This document shows, one piece after another, positions 18,935 to 22,914 of a stretch of DNA of 34,860 nucleotides. Where the stretch lies: positions 1-34,860 of the forward strand of contig NZ_PIUM01000046.1 in the NCBI RefSeq assembly GCF_002845745.1, given 5' to 3'. The notes below the pieces were generated by a model. That model worked only from the letters and a program-made list of their open reading frames with translations. It did not search any database and was not told the origin of the DNA. Each line of letters starts with the position of its first letter. Positions within the stretch are counted from its first letter, which is position 1. The position numbers and the translations under genes are program-made. Source of the stretch: Telmatospirillum siberiense. GTDB lineage: Bacteria; Pseudomonadota; Alphaproteobacteria; Rhodospirillales; Magnetospirillaceae.

Positions 18935-20403
18935 TGGCTCGCCTTGTTCTCTGATGGGACGGATGCCGCCTTGCGGGCCGCCGCCGCCGCCGCCGCGGCT
19001 TCACGCTTGGCCTGGGCTTGCCGTTCGAGACGCTCGACCCGCGTTTCGGACAGTGTCTTGACCCGGTCGAGCCGGCGCCGCTCGCGGTCCCGGGCGGCCA
19101 ACTCGCCTTTCGCGTAGTTGAAATATTGCACCAGCGGAATGTGCGACGGGCAGATATAGGAACAACTGCCGCAGGAGAAGCAGTCGGTCACCCCGATGCC
19201 CGCCGCGGCATCGAGATTGTCCTTGCGGATGAAGGCCGCCATCTCCACCGGCACCAGCCCGCAGGGGCAGATGGTGACGCAGCCGCCACAGCGGATGCAG
19301 GGCTGGGTGGGCCGCTCGTTGGCCTCGGCAACGGTGAGCGCCAGGATGCCCGAGGTTCCCTTGACCACCGGCACCTCAAGGGACGGCAGGGGCTGTCCCA
19401 TCATCGGTCCGCCATTGACGATCCGCCGGGGCTCCTCGCGTAAGCCGCCGCAAAAGGCGATCAATTCCGAAACCATGGCGCCCAGCGGCACCTCGATGTT
19501 CTTTCCCTGGGCGACGGCGCCGCCGCTGACCGTCACCACCCGGCGCGTCAATGGACGGCCGAAGCGCACGGACTGATGGACGGCGCGTGCCGTGCCGACG
19601 TTGTGGACGACCACGCCCAATTCGGCGGTCAACTTTTTGGCCGGCGTTTCCCGGCCGGTGATGGCCTGGGTCAGATGCCGTTCCGATCCCATCGGATATT
19701 GGACCGGAACGTCGATCACCTCGATGGCGTCGAAGCCGGCGGCGGCGGCACGCATGGCCTCCAGGGCCTGCGGCTTGTTGCGCTCGATGGCGATGACGAT
19801 CCCGGGCGCCCCCAGGGCATGGGCCATGATCCGGGCCCCGTCGACGATCTCGGCGGCATATTCGCGCATCAACCGGTCGTCGCAGGTCAGATAGGGTTCG
19901 CATTCCGCCCCGTTGATCAGCAGCGTCTCGATCTTCTGCTGACTGCCCAGGTTGAGCTTGACCGCCGCGGGGAAAGTGGCGCCCCCCAGGCCGACGATAC
20001 CGGAACTGGCGACCCGTTCGCGGATGGCGTCGCCGGATAGGGAGAAGGGATCCTCAATGGGGTCCGGCAGGTCGGTCCACTCATCCTTCCCATCGGGTTC
20101 GAGAATGATGGTGAGCTGTGGCAGCCCCGAGGGATGGGGCGCGGTCACCGTGGTGATCTCGACAACGACGCCCGAGGTCGAAGCATGGGTCGGTGCCGAT
20201 ACCGCTCCCTGGCCGCGCGCCAGCAGATCGCCCTTCCTGACTTTTTGCCCGACGCTGACCACCGGCTCGGCCGGCGCTCCGATATGCTGCTGCAAGGGCA
20301 GATAAAGCCGGGCCGGCATGGGCAGCGCAACGATCGGCTGCTCGGAGGTCAGCTCCTTGCGGTACTTCGGATGGATACCGCCGCGGATGGGAAACAGTCG
20401 CAT
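18931..20403 (-). CDS. rnfC: Rnf complex NADH- and Fe-S-binding subunit C
   Basis: A 490-residue peripheral subunit where NADH/NAD+ is thought to react. It contains the N-terminal barrel-sandwich part, a flavin/NADH-binding region with SSGIVGLGGATFPAAVKL and LLINGAECEPYLTCDDRL, and two [4Fe-4S] motifs, CIRCGGCVTICPCGLVP and CFSCGSCSYICPSHIP. A charged Arg/Glu tail rich in alanine, likely coiled coil, follows, as often in RnfC. I chose ATG 20403 because AGGAGG lies six bases upstream; a GTG at 20418 in the same frame would overlap rnfB. The gap from the rnfB stop is 11 bp. Confidence 0.95.
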   Translation of the reverse strand: MRLFPIRGGIHPKYRKELTSEQPIVALPMPARLYLPLQQHIGAPAEPVVSVGQKVRKGDLLARGQGAVSAPTHASTSGVVVEITTVTAPHPSGLPQLTIILEPDGKDEWTDLPDPIEDPFSLSGDAIRERVASSGIVGLGGATFPAAVKLNLGSQQKIETLLINGAECEPYLTCDDRLMREYAAEIVDGARIMAHALGAPGIVIAIERNKPQALEAMRAAAAGFDAIEVIDVPVQYPMGSERHLTQAITGRETPAKKLTAELGVVVHNVGTARAVHQSVRFGRPLTRRVVTVSGGAVAQGKNIEVPLGAMVSELIAFCGGLREEPRRIVNGGPMMGQPLPSLEVPVVKGTSGILALTVAEANERPTQPCIRCGGCVTICPCGLVPVEMAAFIRKDNLDAAAGIGVTDCFSCGSCSYICPSHIPLVQYFNYAKGELAARDRERRRLDRVKTLSETRVERLERQAQAKREAAAAAAAARKAASVPSENKASQ

Positions 20404-20414
20404 GGCCGCCCTCC

Positions 20415-20951
20415 TCACTGCAGCGCCGCGGCGCCGGGCTTGTTCCAGCGCCAGTCACCCAGAGTGACCGGAACCTGGCACATCTTGATCGCCTCGGTCG
20501 GGCAGATCTTGAAACATTTGGCGCAGCCGTGGCAGTTGTCGCGGATCACCGTATGGATCTGCTTGGGCGCGCCGACGATGGCGTCGGTGGTGCATTCGTT
20601 GGTGCAGCGCAGGCAGCCGATGCACAGCTCCTCCTGCACGAAGGCGTATTGCGGAACGCTTTCCTCGTGATCCGACAGATCCGCCTTGACGCCCAGGCGT
20701 TTGGACAGGGCTTCCGCCACCGACTTTCCGCCCGGCGTGCACAACGTCACCGGAGCCTCGCCCCGCGCCAGCGCCGCCGCCGCCTGACCACAGCCGACAT
20801 AACCGCACTGGCCGCACTGTGCCCCCGGCAACAGGGCGGCCAACTCGACCTCCAGCGGATCTTCCTCGACGGCCAGATAACGGGCGGCGACCCCCAAAAC
20901 GGTCCCCAGCGCCGCCCCCAGCGCCGCCAAACTGCCGATCGCGATCAACAT
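20415..20951 (-). CDS. rnfB: Rnf complex iron-sulfur subunit B
   Basis: A 178-residue ferredoxin-like subunit that receives or gives electrons to ferredoxin. One N-terminal membrane segment (LIAIGSLAALGAALGTVLGVAARYLAV) is followed by the closed [4Fe-4S] domain with CGQCGYVGC and a fourth Cys in TLCTPGG, then two further [4Fe-4S] motifs, CIGCLRCTNEC and CHGCAKCFKICPTEAIKMC. Length is about normal. The ATG at 20951 follows GGAGG. In typical rnf operons the gene directly follows rnfA; here 887 bp including an antisense gene separate them, so it may need its own promoter or read-through. Confidence 0.95.
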   Translation of the reverse strand: MLIAIGSLAALGAALGTVLGVAARYLAVEEDPLEVELAALLPGAQCGQCGYVGCGQAAAALARGEAPVTLCTPGGKSVAEALSKRLGVKADLSDHEESVPQYAFVQEELCIGCLRCTNECTTDAIVGAPKQIHTVIRDNCHGCAKCFKICPTEAIKMCQVPVTLGDWRWNKPGAAALQ

Positions 20952-21038
20952 GACCCCATCTCCTCCCGTTTCGCGGCAACCATCGACGGATACGATCGCG
21001 TTGCCAAATCGGAAACATCGCGATAGCCTGAGGTCGGA

Positions 21039-21070
21039 ATGAACCACCAAGGCACCAAGGCACCAAGGCG
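21039..21070 (+). repeat. 32-bp outer repeat, copy R1
   Basis: ATGAACC followed by repeated ACCAAGGC units, ending two bases after the third AAGG. It abuts the start codon of the GxxExxY gene at 21071, so its last AAGG (21065-21068) is the only ribosome-site-like sequence available to that gene. It is the inverted partner of 21783-21814. Confidence 0.85.
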
Positions 21071-21454
21071 ATGGAACCTTCCTCGGCCCACGACTTTGTT
21101 TCTCGCGAAATCGTCGATTCGGCTTTCGCCGTGCATAAGGCTCTCGGCCCCGGCCTGCTCGAATCCGTCTACGAGCAATGCCTTGCCTATGAACTCGGCA
21201 CCCGCGGTTTCGCCGTTGCACGGCAGGTGGTCTCGCCCGTCATTTACCGAGACATCCGTATCGACGGAAGTTTCCGCATCGACATGATCGTCAACGATTT
21301 GATCATTGTTGAAATCAAAGCGACCGAAAGGCTCGCCGCCATTCACCAGGCACAACTTCTTACCTATCTCAAGCTTTCGAAGCGCCGGCTTGGCCTGCTG
21401 ATCAATTTCAACGTCCCCCGACTCAAGGACGGCATCCGTCGCATGGCCTTGTGA
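21071..21454 (+). CDS. GxxExxY family protein, PD-(D/E)XK nuclease-like
   Basis: A 127-residue soluble protein of the GxxExxY (PDDEXK_3) family, function undetermined. The family motif is G28-LLE31-SVY34. A PD-(D/E)XK nuclease core is apparently complete: Glu31, Asp71 in FRID, E81-I-K83 in IIVEIKA, and a motif IV-like Q95...Y99 in HQAQLLTYLK. The start at 21071 directly follows repeat R1 with no normal spacing from a ribosome site. It lies antisense to the flanking rnf genes and is bounded by inverted repeats, so it is probably cargo or the active component of the repeat cassette. Nuclease activity is inference from the fold family; DNA or RNA as substrate is unknown. Confidence 0.85.
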   Translation: MEPSSAHDFVSREIVDSAFAVHKALGPGLLESVYEQCLAYELGTRGFAVARQVVSPVIYRDIRIDGSFRIDMIVNDLIIVEIKATERLAAIHQAQLLTYLKLSKRRLGLLINFNVPRLKDGIRRMAL

Positions 21455-21502
21455 GATCCACCTCATCGCCACACCGGCAACGCCACGACGGTCCGGCGAT
21501 GG

Positions 21503-21675
21503 AGAAACCACCAAGGCATCAAGGCGACAAAGCAACAAAGCGCGCCGCAGGCGTCTTCCCGTCCGGCCGACGATGTCGCCCCGGATAACCGAATGAAAGC
21601 CTGCGGCGCTCCCGCCTAATCCGCCGCCCGCTCTTGCGGGGAACGCCGTGGTGCCTTGGTGCCTTGGTGGTTCAC
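21503..21675. repeat. Foldback inverted repeat inside the cassette
   Basis: A degraded direct repeat copy (about 21502-21533) continues to GCGCCGCAGGC (21542-21552), which is perfectly complementary to GCCTGCGGCGC (21599-21609). Beyond that lies the inverted repeat copy R3 (21644-21675). Together they form a long imperfect hairpin of about 170 bp downstream of the GxxExxY gene. It contains no open frame that looks coding. Confidence 0.6.
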
Positions 21676-21814
21676 TTGCGTTATGAACCGCCATGTCCCA
21701 TCCGGAAGGCGTCGCCACACCGGATGACCGAACGAACGCCTGCGGCGCGTCCGCCTGATCCGTCGTCCGCTCTTTCGGGGAACGCCTTGGTGCCTTGGTG
21801 TCTTGGTGGTTCAT
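21574..21814. repeat. Imperfect tandem duplication of about 100 bp
   Basis: The block at 21574-21675 resembles 21710-21814. Both run from GTCGCC..CCGGAT through GCCTGCGGCGC (21599-21609 and 21738-21748), CCGCCT.ATCCG, CCGCTCTT.CGGGGAACGCC and into the TTGG-rich 32-bp repeat. Differences are scattered single bases and small indels, so the duplication is not recent. Between the copies is ATGAACCGCCA (21683-21693), a fragment related to the repeat end; another, CTTGGCGGTTCAT, follows at about 21820-21832. Confidence 0.7.
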
Positions 21815-21838
21815 CTTATCTTGGCGGTTCATCGTCAA

Positions 21839-22429
21839 TCAGTTCGCGCTGATGCCGGAAAAGCCCATGAAGGCGAGCGCCAGCAGGCTGGCGGTGACGA
21901 AGCCGATCGGCGGGCCGACGAACAGGCGCGGCACGTCGTTCAAGGCGATGCGTTCGCGAAGACCGGCGAAGATGACCAGGATCAGGCTGTAGCCGAAGGC
22001 CGAGGCGAAGCCGTAAAGCATGCTGTGCATGAAGTCGTGCCGGCTTTGCACGTTGAGCAGCGGAATGCCCAGCACCGCGCAATTGGTGGTGATCAGCGGC
22101 AGATAGATGCCCAGCGTCTTGAACAGCGAAGGCGAAACCTTGCGGATCACCATCTCGGTGAACTGCACCACGGCGGCGATCACCAGGATGAAGGTGATGG
22201 TCCGCAAATAGCCCAGATCGAACGGCACCAACAGAAAGACTTCGACGGCCCAGGCCAGGATCGAGGACACGGTCATCACGAAGGTGGTGGCCATCCCCAT
22301 GCCGACCGCCGTGTCGATCTTGGTGGTGACGCCCATGAAGGAACACAGGCCGAGAAAGCGGACCAGCACGACATTGTTGACCAATGCGGCGCCCACCATG
22401 AGCATAATGAATTCCTGCACGTGCCCCAT
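21839..22429 (-). CDS. rnfA: Rnf complex membrane subunit A
   Basis: A 196-residue integral membrane subunit, paralogue of RnfE and NqrE. It starts [20 protein letters not shown] and contains [21 protein letters not shown] and [18 protein letters not shown], the latter with the conserved TNCA cysteine, paired with Cys29 at the membrane iron site. Six hydrophobic helices are visible. The ATG at 22429 follows AGGG. It is 11 bp after the rseC-like gene. Transcription toward rnfB must cross the inserted GxxExxY cassette, whose outer repeat ends 24 bp from the rnfA stop. Confidence 0.95.
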
Positions 22430-22440
22430 TGTTCGACCCT

Positions 22441-22914
22441 TTAATCCGTTGGGCAGTTGTCGCCTTGCCCCTCGCCCCGGGCAAAACGGAGAAAATAAGG
22501 AGACAGCTCGCCCCGGGCATCCAGGCGGGAAGCCCGGTGTTTGGCGATCAGCAGACCGGCGATCAATCCAGCCACCGCGCCGATGGCGGCGATGACATCG
22601 TTGTCGGTGGCCAATTGCCCGACCAGCGCGATACCGACCATCAGCAACAGGGGAATGGCATAAGCCGTCGCCGAGGCCTTGAGCAAAGCGTGCTCGGACA
22701 GGCCGACCACGATGCGGTCGCCGACGGTGGCATGGAAGGTATCGGCGATGGTGAAGCGCCGTGAAGACAGCCGCCGACCAGGCTCGCCGCCTTGGGCCGA
22801 GCAACTGCCGGCCGACAGGCATCCACCGCAGGCATTGGCCTTTTCAGGCTCCAGCCATGCGACGACGCCATCGGTGGAAATCACGCGGGCGACACTTTCG
22901 ACCACCCCGTCCAT
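22441..22914 (-). CDS. rseC: RseC/MucC family protein (SoxR-reducing system type)
   Basis: A 157-residue inner-membrane protein of the RseC family. The N-terminal cytoplasmic part carries a cysteine cluster, [10 protein letters not shown], near residues 28-37. Two adjacent hydrophobic helices follow ([19 protein letters not shown] and [17 protein letters not shown]), then a short tail. In enterobacteria RseC works with the Rnf homologue Rsx to keep SoxR reduced. Here it lies between apbE and rnfA, supporting a role linked to the Rnf complex. The exact role in this organism is unknown. Confidence 0.85.

Follow-up and report, generated by a model that had tools for sequence, protein, structure and literature searches.

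GxxExxY genes and their inverted arrays of short tandem units: a putative REP/RAYT-like system with a Cas4-like nuclease

In our opinion it is likely that GxxExxY genes and the inverted arrays of short tandem units around them make up one REP/RAYT-like system, in which the enzyme is an unrelated, Cas4-like nuclease that would act on its own arrays and spread gene-less elements. It is shown that the gene occurs with inverted arrays, that gene-less copies lie genome-wide and that gene and repeat are associated; it is equally shown that array type covaries with protein subfamily, that the active-site residues are conserved, that sites in relatives are empty and that paralogues are divergent. Against our explanation it has to be said that binding, cutting and movement were not observed and are inferred only. 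The genes without clear arrays (41 of them), the arrays in some gene-free genomes and the variable array order in one family, CACAGAT, also speak against it. The window, by which we mean the whole stretch of 34,860 nucleotides that was analysed, belongs to a Telmatospirillum siberiense genome of 6.2 Mb in 81 contigs, called G000 below.

The insert between rnfA and rnfB

The genes rnfA and rnfB are separated in the window by 887 bp (rnfB starts at 20951 on the minus strand, the stop codon of rnfA at 21839). The gap holds a gene of 127 codons on the plus strand, antisense to both neighbours, at 21071-21454. The initial annotation, made from sequence alone, had described a gap of this length with an antisense gene, and the coordinates bear it out. 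The features are the following.

20415 to 20951, minus strand: rnfB, downstream of the insert on that strand
21039 to 21070, plus strand: left array of about three CACCAAGG units, preceded by the outer end ATGAACC and abutting the start codon
21071 to 21454, plus strand: GxxExxY gene for a putative PD-(D/E)XK nuclease of 127 aa, with D71, E81-x-K83, Q95-xxx-Y99 and a GPGLLESVY motif
21504 to 21674, no strand: complete gene-less hairpin element (DNA fold z = -7.4), with a worn left array (21506-21533), a right array (21644-21674) and inner arms GCGCGCCGCAGGC / GCCTGCGGCGC
21696 to 21814, no strand: right half of a second element, ending in a right array (21783-21814)
21820 to 21833, minus strand: worn extra unit CTTGGCGGTTCATC, read by eye, adjoining rnfA
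21839 to 22429, minus strand: rnfA, upstream of the insert on that strand

The outer arms (21039-21070 and 21783-21814) are 32 nt each, complementary at 31 of 32 positions (97%), and each consists of about three copies of an 8-bp unit, as had been claimed. The pattern CRCNRAGNCRCNRAG is found five times in the window (0.12 expected; at most 1 in 100 shuffles), every time in the rnfA-rnfB gap, and a direct repeat of 118 nt links 21557-21674 with 21696-21813 at 83% identity. The insert is a composite: the left array and the gene are followed by one complete gene-less element and then by the right half of a second; therefore the 32-bp arms are the gene's left array and the outer end of a neighbouring element. 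The initial observation is confirmed, with the correction that the two arms belong to different elements.

The AAGG of the last unit of the left array (window 21053-21073) stands, as read by eye, at ribosome-binding distance from the ATG. It is possible, as an inference from the letters, that it serves as the ribosome-binding site and that the array doubles as the leader of the gene. More generally, a left array precedes an in-frame start, at a median distance of 18 nt, in 96 of 107 loci with clear arrays. Given this position directly before the start codon, the GxxExxY protein may control its own expression, which is not shown.

The window protein is a clear member of the GxxExxY family (TIGR04256 / PF13366; PDDEXK_3), far over both cut-offs: 144.6 bits against a cut-off of 35 for TIGR04256, and 141.4 bits against 22 for PF13366, its sole Pfam match. 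D71, E81, K83, Q95 and Y99 are invariant in an alignment of 45 sequences and again in a second one of 42, which indicates an active nuclease kept by selection, although this is an inference and no cutting was seen. The initial annotation is thus upheld both in the family assignment and in the complete PD-(D/E)XK core. A D...ExK...QxxxY core marks the Cas4 / RecB / lambda-exonuclease group. The AlphaFold2 model is confident (pLDDT 94.7, pTM 0.87), and the best Foldseek matches of it are SSO0001 (4ic1), which we take to be a Cas4, LHK-Exo, lambda exonuclease, AdnAB and an Argonaute-associated Cas4. None of the Foldseek matches reached E<=0.001; the best, 4ic1, has E=1.2e-3, probability 1.00, TMq 0.57 and rmsd 13.7, so that in superposition the fold match to Cas4 is a weak one. 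The Cas4b profile of PADLOC matched the window protein weakly (E=1.2e-5), and it gave no match to the protein of the other GxxExxY gene of this genome (L002). No solved relative was found by sequence search, in which the sole match had E=0.42. We nevertheless consider it likely that the GxxExxY protein is a minimal RecB/Cas4-type PD-(D/E)XK nuclease, as predicted from the model, its activity being inferred. None of the ten window ORFs that were scanned (a part of the window's ORFs) belongs to a cas family, the neighbours being rnfA and rnfB, and there are no regularly spaced CRISPR-like repeats in window 20000-22800.

That GxxExxY proteins lack an established role had also been stated, and indeed the open-access literature that we searched held neither a function for the family nor a link to repeats, though a description outside that literature is possible. 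Searches of the same literature on palindromic repeats with Cas4 and on the repeat oligomers likewise returned no paper on a GxxExxY link. Published lists place a GxxExxY gene in an algal virus, and Arctic microalgae are described as having an expanded PF13366 family (PMC12085832, PMC9756366); hence the family extends to eukaryotic genomes or their viruses. In a further paper a neighbour of a CRISPR-type reverse transcriptase is labelled as a GxxExxY gene.

Gene-less elements and their turnover

With up to two mismatches, CACCAAGGCACCAAGG has 139 + 150 matches in G000 (289), against 2 + 2 (4) for the reversed pattern. The reversed pattern is a conservative control, as some of the arrays themselves (CACAGAGA types) partly match it. 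It is ruled out by the 289 matches that the repeats are particular to the rnf locus. The 75 exact matches of the CACCAAGG family fall into 44 places. At 16 of the 19 places that were read, arrays are present in both orientations, in all cases plus and then minus, and the gene-less elements measure 125-188 bp between their outer ends. When 17 gene-less copies are aligned, the first 30 columns are 92% conserved, the last 30 are 85% conserved and the interior 66%, so that the conserved part is the ends and not the interior. Six of these 17 copies were folded as DNA and gave hairpins (z from -6.7 to -12.5). Such gene-less elements far outnumber the GxxExxY genes in G000. A known RNA family was considered for the repeats and rejected, because two tRNAs were all that 12 sources with elements yielded at gathering thresholds.

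We could not resolve exact insertion boundaries at the element places that were read, and no consistent target-site duplication was seen by eye at 19 of them, nor was there a clean empty/filled pair from near relatives. Of the 19 CACCAAGG places, about half have long outer flanks in common and are therefore not independent insertions, or lie inside a larger repeat. Such flanks around CCGGATATTTTGA and TCAAAAGCCGGAGC are common to eight places in G000 (L010, L014, L016, L020, L021, L024, L026 and L029), and they may point to a larger repeat or to a preferred target.

G000 has one other GxxExxY gene, L002, whose protein is 41% identical to that of the window and whose flanks carry a different inverted array, CACAGATGGG-like and of period 10. 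The family of this second array (CACAGAT) is genome-wide too (79 matches vs 0 for the control); thus the genome has two GxxExxY genes and two array families, both dispersed. The gene-less CACAGAT copies take several forms among the 17 loci read. Two are compact (L203 at C7:12963 and L212 at C80:5588), with arrays about 30 bp apart from start to start, plus then minus, and make a near-perfect small hairpin; one (L216) is a longer plus-minus form. Four (L202, L208, L213 and L227) are longer gene-less forms with minus then plus about 110 bp apart, an order opposite to that of the gene's own arrays and to that of the CACCAAGG family, and at the remaining loci the strict motif was satisfied in a single orientation or in neither. 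The minus-then-plus order does not fit a simple element with terminal inverted repeats and is unexplained.

The rnf junction was examined at L063-L083, of which L082 and L083 were set aside for want of rnfB; an RnfA match was absent in 20 of the 41 related genomes. In 17 of 17 junctions from more distant relatives (L065-L081) the rnfA-rnfB gap is only 13-22 bp, against 891 in G000 and 128 in G300 by the same measure. G300 is the nearest relative examined that has an rnf junction (RnfA 97% identical; locus DNA 85-86% identical), and at its junction there are a worn CACCAAGG end and, apart from it, a gene-less CACGGAG element. At a second orthologous place a CACCAAGG element in G000 (L025) faces a CACGGAG/CACAGAG element in G300 (L253). 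These were the only two orthologous places with both flanks aligned when 455 kb of G300 were compared with 60 element loci and the window, and both hold different elements. Since the distant junctions are empty and the shared places carry different elements, the insert is lineage-specific and the elements turn over. An element of this kind would have entered the rnfA-rnfB junction in the lineage to which G000 and G300 belong. Near relatives yielded no direct empty/filled pair. In G300 a CACCAAGG element (L256; G300:C37, about 2060-2218, opposite window 16190) lies next to where the aligned rnf region ends, and G000 lacks it; the far flank is unaligned, so this is not a clean empty site. G300 (5.7 Mb) gave ten GxxExxY matches, several of them fragments, which point to decay and turnover of the gene.

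It would be tempting to regard gene and arrays as an autonomous selfish insertion element that, like an insertion sequence, is copied as a whole by its own action. In favour of this reading are the array-gene-array units, their patchy distribution and the mixing of phyla on a tree of 80 proteins, where 15 phyla need 40 changes (minimum 14, shuffled mean 50.6). This tree rests on few columns, and transfer cannot be told apart from old paralogy as the source of the mixing. Against it, only 1 of 78 within-genome protein pairs (fetched genes of 17 genomes) is at least 80% identical, and proteins are as unlike within a genome as between genomes (median identity 42% vs 45%). Not all genes per genome were included in this test, and draft assemblies can merge identical copies. 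We therefore consider self-copying of the whole unit very unlikely. The initial annotation had left the choice between a REP/RAYT-like system and a small selfish element, and the RAYT-like form fits better because of that single pair in 78.

The window protein matched 8 of 72,556 plasmid records. It matched none of 50,697 phage records at E<=1e-5, which leads us to reject a phage-borne gene; the best PHROG match had E=0.015.

Arrays and GxxExxY genes across genomes

We looked for inverted matches between the two 300-bp flanks of GxxExxY genes, with a score of 30 or more counted as positive. From 220 loci, 8 duplicates, 6 fragments and 5 with short flanks were dropped, leaving 201, and 963 windows shifted along the same contigs served as controls. 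Inverted arrays are present in the flanks of 160/201 genes vs 14/963 control windows (median scores 41 vs 19). By source the positives are 2/2 in the own genome, 22/28 in the own-phylum draw, 20/26 in relatives, 61/76 in the genome_contigs set, 53/63 in the phylum of G338 and 2/6 in extra relatives. A clear inverted array is absent in 41 of the 201. For each search the best-scoring matches were taken as loci, so that the sample is not random (the genome_contigs set being the best 80 of 569), and earlier flank counts used slightly different cuts, one of them including duplicate loci. The genome_contigs loci span Bacteroidota, Planctomycetota, Acidobacteriota, Chloroflexota, Verrucomicrobiota, Pseudomonadota and Cyanobacteriota together with two archaea, one with arrays (L159, score 38) and one without (L169, 17). 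The units, whose form was read by eye, are CRCNRAG or CRCNGA[T/A/C] with a period of 8 to 11 and about 3-4 per array; near genes, 664 CRCNRAG units are oriented the expected way and 198 the other way. It had been suggested at the outset that repeats and nuclease form one unit, and this is supported and extended well beyond the rnf locus.

The gene is patchy, being found in 57 of 299 genomes of the own-phylum draw, 17 of 41 relatives and 104 of 194 genomes drawn evenly from the phylum to which G338 belongs (this Chthoniobacteraceae record is the genome with L122), with up to 12 matches per genome in the last draw; the 104 include one match below the family cut-off. Among the 41 relatives, at least five period-8 arrays occur in 14/17 genomes with the gene vs 3/24 without (p=1.2e-5). 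In the 194-genome draw, six or more array matches occur in 80/104 vs 6/90 (p=3.8e-25, kinship uncorrected), and the medians are 15 with the gene and 1 without, against 4 and 2 for the reversed pattern. The genomes in these draws are related to one another, and no species-tree correction was made. The link holds in each of three genome-size classes. The two observations that the initial annotation named as able to refute it, repeats lying genome-wide with no link to GxxExxY genes and the same insert in all relatives, were both not made: the repeats are genome-wide but strongly linked to these genes, and all 17 of the more distant junctions are without the insert.

For 50 of the 80 genome_contigs loci the carrier genomes were scanned as well. 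The median is 28.5 matches vs 3 for the reversed pattern, and ten or more are present in 39/50 vs 12/50. Very high numbers are seen in G374 (L171; 1085), G360 (L147; 733), G366 (L158; 552) and G379 (L178; 472), in genomes of 3.0-6.4 Mb. In the genome of L172 (G375, contig C64, 2946-3462) arrays recur every 167 bp in a single orientation, as would be expected had a complete element been amplified in head-to-tail fashion, which is a possibility and no more.

As the hairpin architecture and the copy number resemble those of REPINs, one may ask whether the elements are ordinary REPINs moved by a RAYT, that is, a Y1 HUH transposase. In the 194 genomes, arrays are common in 72/93 genomes with GxxExxY vs 4/44 without it where Y1_Tnp is present, and in 8/11 vs 2/46 where Y1_Tnp is absent. 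With GxxExxY accounted for, Y1_Tnp has no additional effect (p=0.71 and 0.43), and it is GxxExxY genes that the tandem-unit arrays directly flank. This alternative is all but excluded.

The association has exceptions. In the same draw 24 of the 104 gene-bearing genomes have fewer than six period-8 arrays, which is partly due to the fixed period of the pattern, and 6 of the 90 gene-free genomes hold ten or more array matches; G308 has 35 and no gene, and its genus-mate G318 has the gene. The persistence of arrays in some gene-free genomes favours a second alternative, namely a host-serving role in repair or recombination. On this reading a RecB-family nuclease would protect or process the ends of DNA, with the arrays as its Chi-like signals or barriers, and selection or ordinary gene conversion, not the nuclease, would have spread the repeats. 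The nearest folds (of Cas4, lambda-exonuclease and AdnAB type) and the weak Cas4b match point the same way. On the contrary, a patchy gene with up to a dozen matches per genome, divergent paralogues that mostly have different arrays and a position inside an array pair has the look of a genetic element, and we regard the host-serving reading as unlikely.

Array type follows the protein. When 139 of 140 loci gave a protein, CRCNRAG arrays were found with 113/119 GLLE proteins and CRCNGAT arrays with 1/119, whereas GFLE proteins had CRCNGAT arrays in 11/16 and CRCNRAG in 0/16. Among the 152 non-redundant loci with clear arrays there are 102 GLLE/AG and 27 GFLE/GAx combinations and a single exception in either direction (L193 and L293). 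Protein identity correlates with array similarity (rho 0.27; 0 of 500 permutations), and among the columns by which the array types can be told apart are window residues 27, 29, 98, 102 and 114 (numbering inferred from trimmed positions), two of which lie in or beside the QxxxY motif. The main split between subfamilies and arrays is deep, so it represents few independent events. The number of GAT arrays in genomes with GFLE (median 28, n=9) is not significantly different from that in GLLE-only genomes (8, n=8; p=0.12), and G315, G310 and G329 are rich in GAT arrays with no GFLE gene found. A GLLE protein goes with CRCNGAT arrays in Neolewinella maritima (L193), and GFLE proteins with CRCNRAG-type arrays at L293 and L311 (the latter by eye); these discordant cases could perhaps be switches of specificity. 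Further unit types were seen among L307, L308, L316 and L314, where GFLE proteins have ACAGGAT-like arrays next to them and a GYLE protein has CATGATT arrays.

This covariation bears on a further alternative, in which an unknown transposase moves array-ended elements and the GxxExxY gene is mere cargo or a hitchhiker. Several observations can be read in its favour: the excess of gene-less elements over genes in G000, the many arrays in some gene-free genomes, the different array families of G000 and G300 at two orthologous sites and the mixed array order in the CACAGAT family. The gene-less copies measured (125-188 bp), for their part, are too short for a transposase, and it is GxxExxY with which the arrays are associated, not the Y1 transposases, the only transposase family compared. 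Moreover, a passenger would have no need of an array type that covaries with its subfamily. In our opinion the passenger reading is improbable.

A possible mechanism and its relation to known systems

We return to the explanation preferred here, in which the nuclease acts on its own arrays. The GxxExxY protein would recognise about 3-4 head-to-tail units of 8-11 bp, usually presented as an inverted pair, in the form CRCNRAG for the GLLE subfamily and CRCNGA[T/A/C] for GFLE. A gene copy sits between one pair of arrays, and most array copies are without a gene. The protein would bind its own arrays, perhaps with one protomer per unit, a suggestion that we make because the array units are close to one helical turn. 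It may then nick or trim DNA at the edge of the array while the element is in single-stranded or extruded form, after which host repair would re-insert the hairpin element or copy it to new sites. That the protein acts on its own repeats was part of the initial annotation, and it is still an inference.

A bolder reading is that a Cas4-fold nuclease alone, with no HUH, DDE or recombinase partner, mobilises hairpin repeats with tandem-unit ends throughout prokaryotes. We would not commit ourselves for or against it. If it is true, this would be a class of replicators parallel to REP/RAYT, explaining dispersed CACNNAG, CGCNNAG and CACNGAT repeats in many phyla, and such elements could be a mobile relative, or the source, of Cas4-type nucleases. 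Irrespective of that, a large class of unexplained dispersed repeats is tied to a gene (80/104 vs 6/90 genomes), and GxxExxY proteins, which occur in many phyla, gain candidate substrates in their own arrays, a likely role and testable biochemistry. If it is the nuclease that spreads the repeats, then the logic of REP/RAYT arose twice from unrelated enzymes, and a second independent system becomes available for general questions on replicators within genomes.

With regard to nucleases of the Cas4 / RecB / lambda-exonuclease group, the GxxExxY protein shares the D...ExK...QxxxY core, and its best fold match is 4ic1. It differs from Cas4 in that it has only 127 aa, is linked to dispersed arrays and lies here outside a cas locus. 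With MITEs the elements share shortness, the absence of a gene, terminal inverted repeats and many copies, but their ends are formed by tandem-unit arrays, and the gene linked to them encodes a nuclease. The gene linked to MITEs is a DDE transposase. Because neither the enzyme nor the repeat is common to any known system found in the open-access literature that we searched, we regard the system as new in kind.

The closest comparison is with REP/RAYT. According to PMC8049555, RAYT genes are present in single copy, do not copy themselves and were not seen on plasmids, and REPINs are commoner where the gene is present; RAYTs are also said to be vertically inherited. Like REP/RAYT, the system described here has a small nuclease gene flanked by repeats and many gene-less inverted pairs that form hairpins, such pairs having been read in G000 and arrays counted in other genomes, and the gene rarely multiplies within genomes (1/78 pairs) and is rare on plasmids. 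Unlike REP/RAYT, the enzyme is of the PD-(D/E)XK type and not a Y1 HUH (PF01797), the repeats are tandem 8-11 bp units and not single palindromes, several divergent genes occur per genome, and phyla are mixed on the tree, be it by transfer or by old paralogy. Hence the system fails to qualify as REP/RAYT on the defining enzyme, yet, by analogy, it looks alike in its working.
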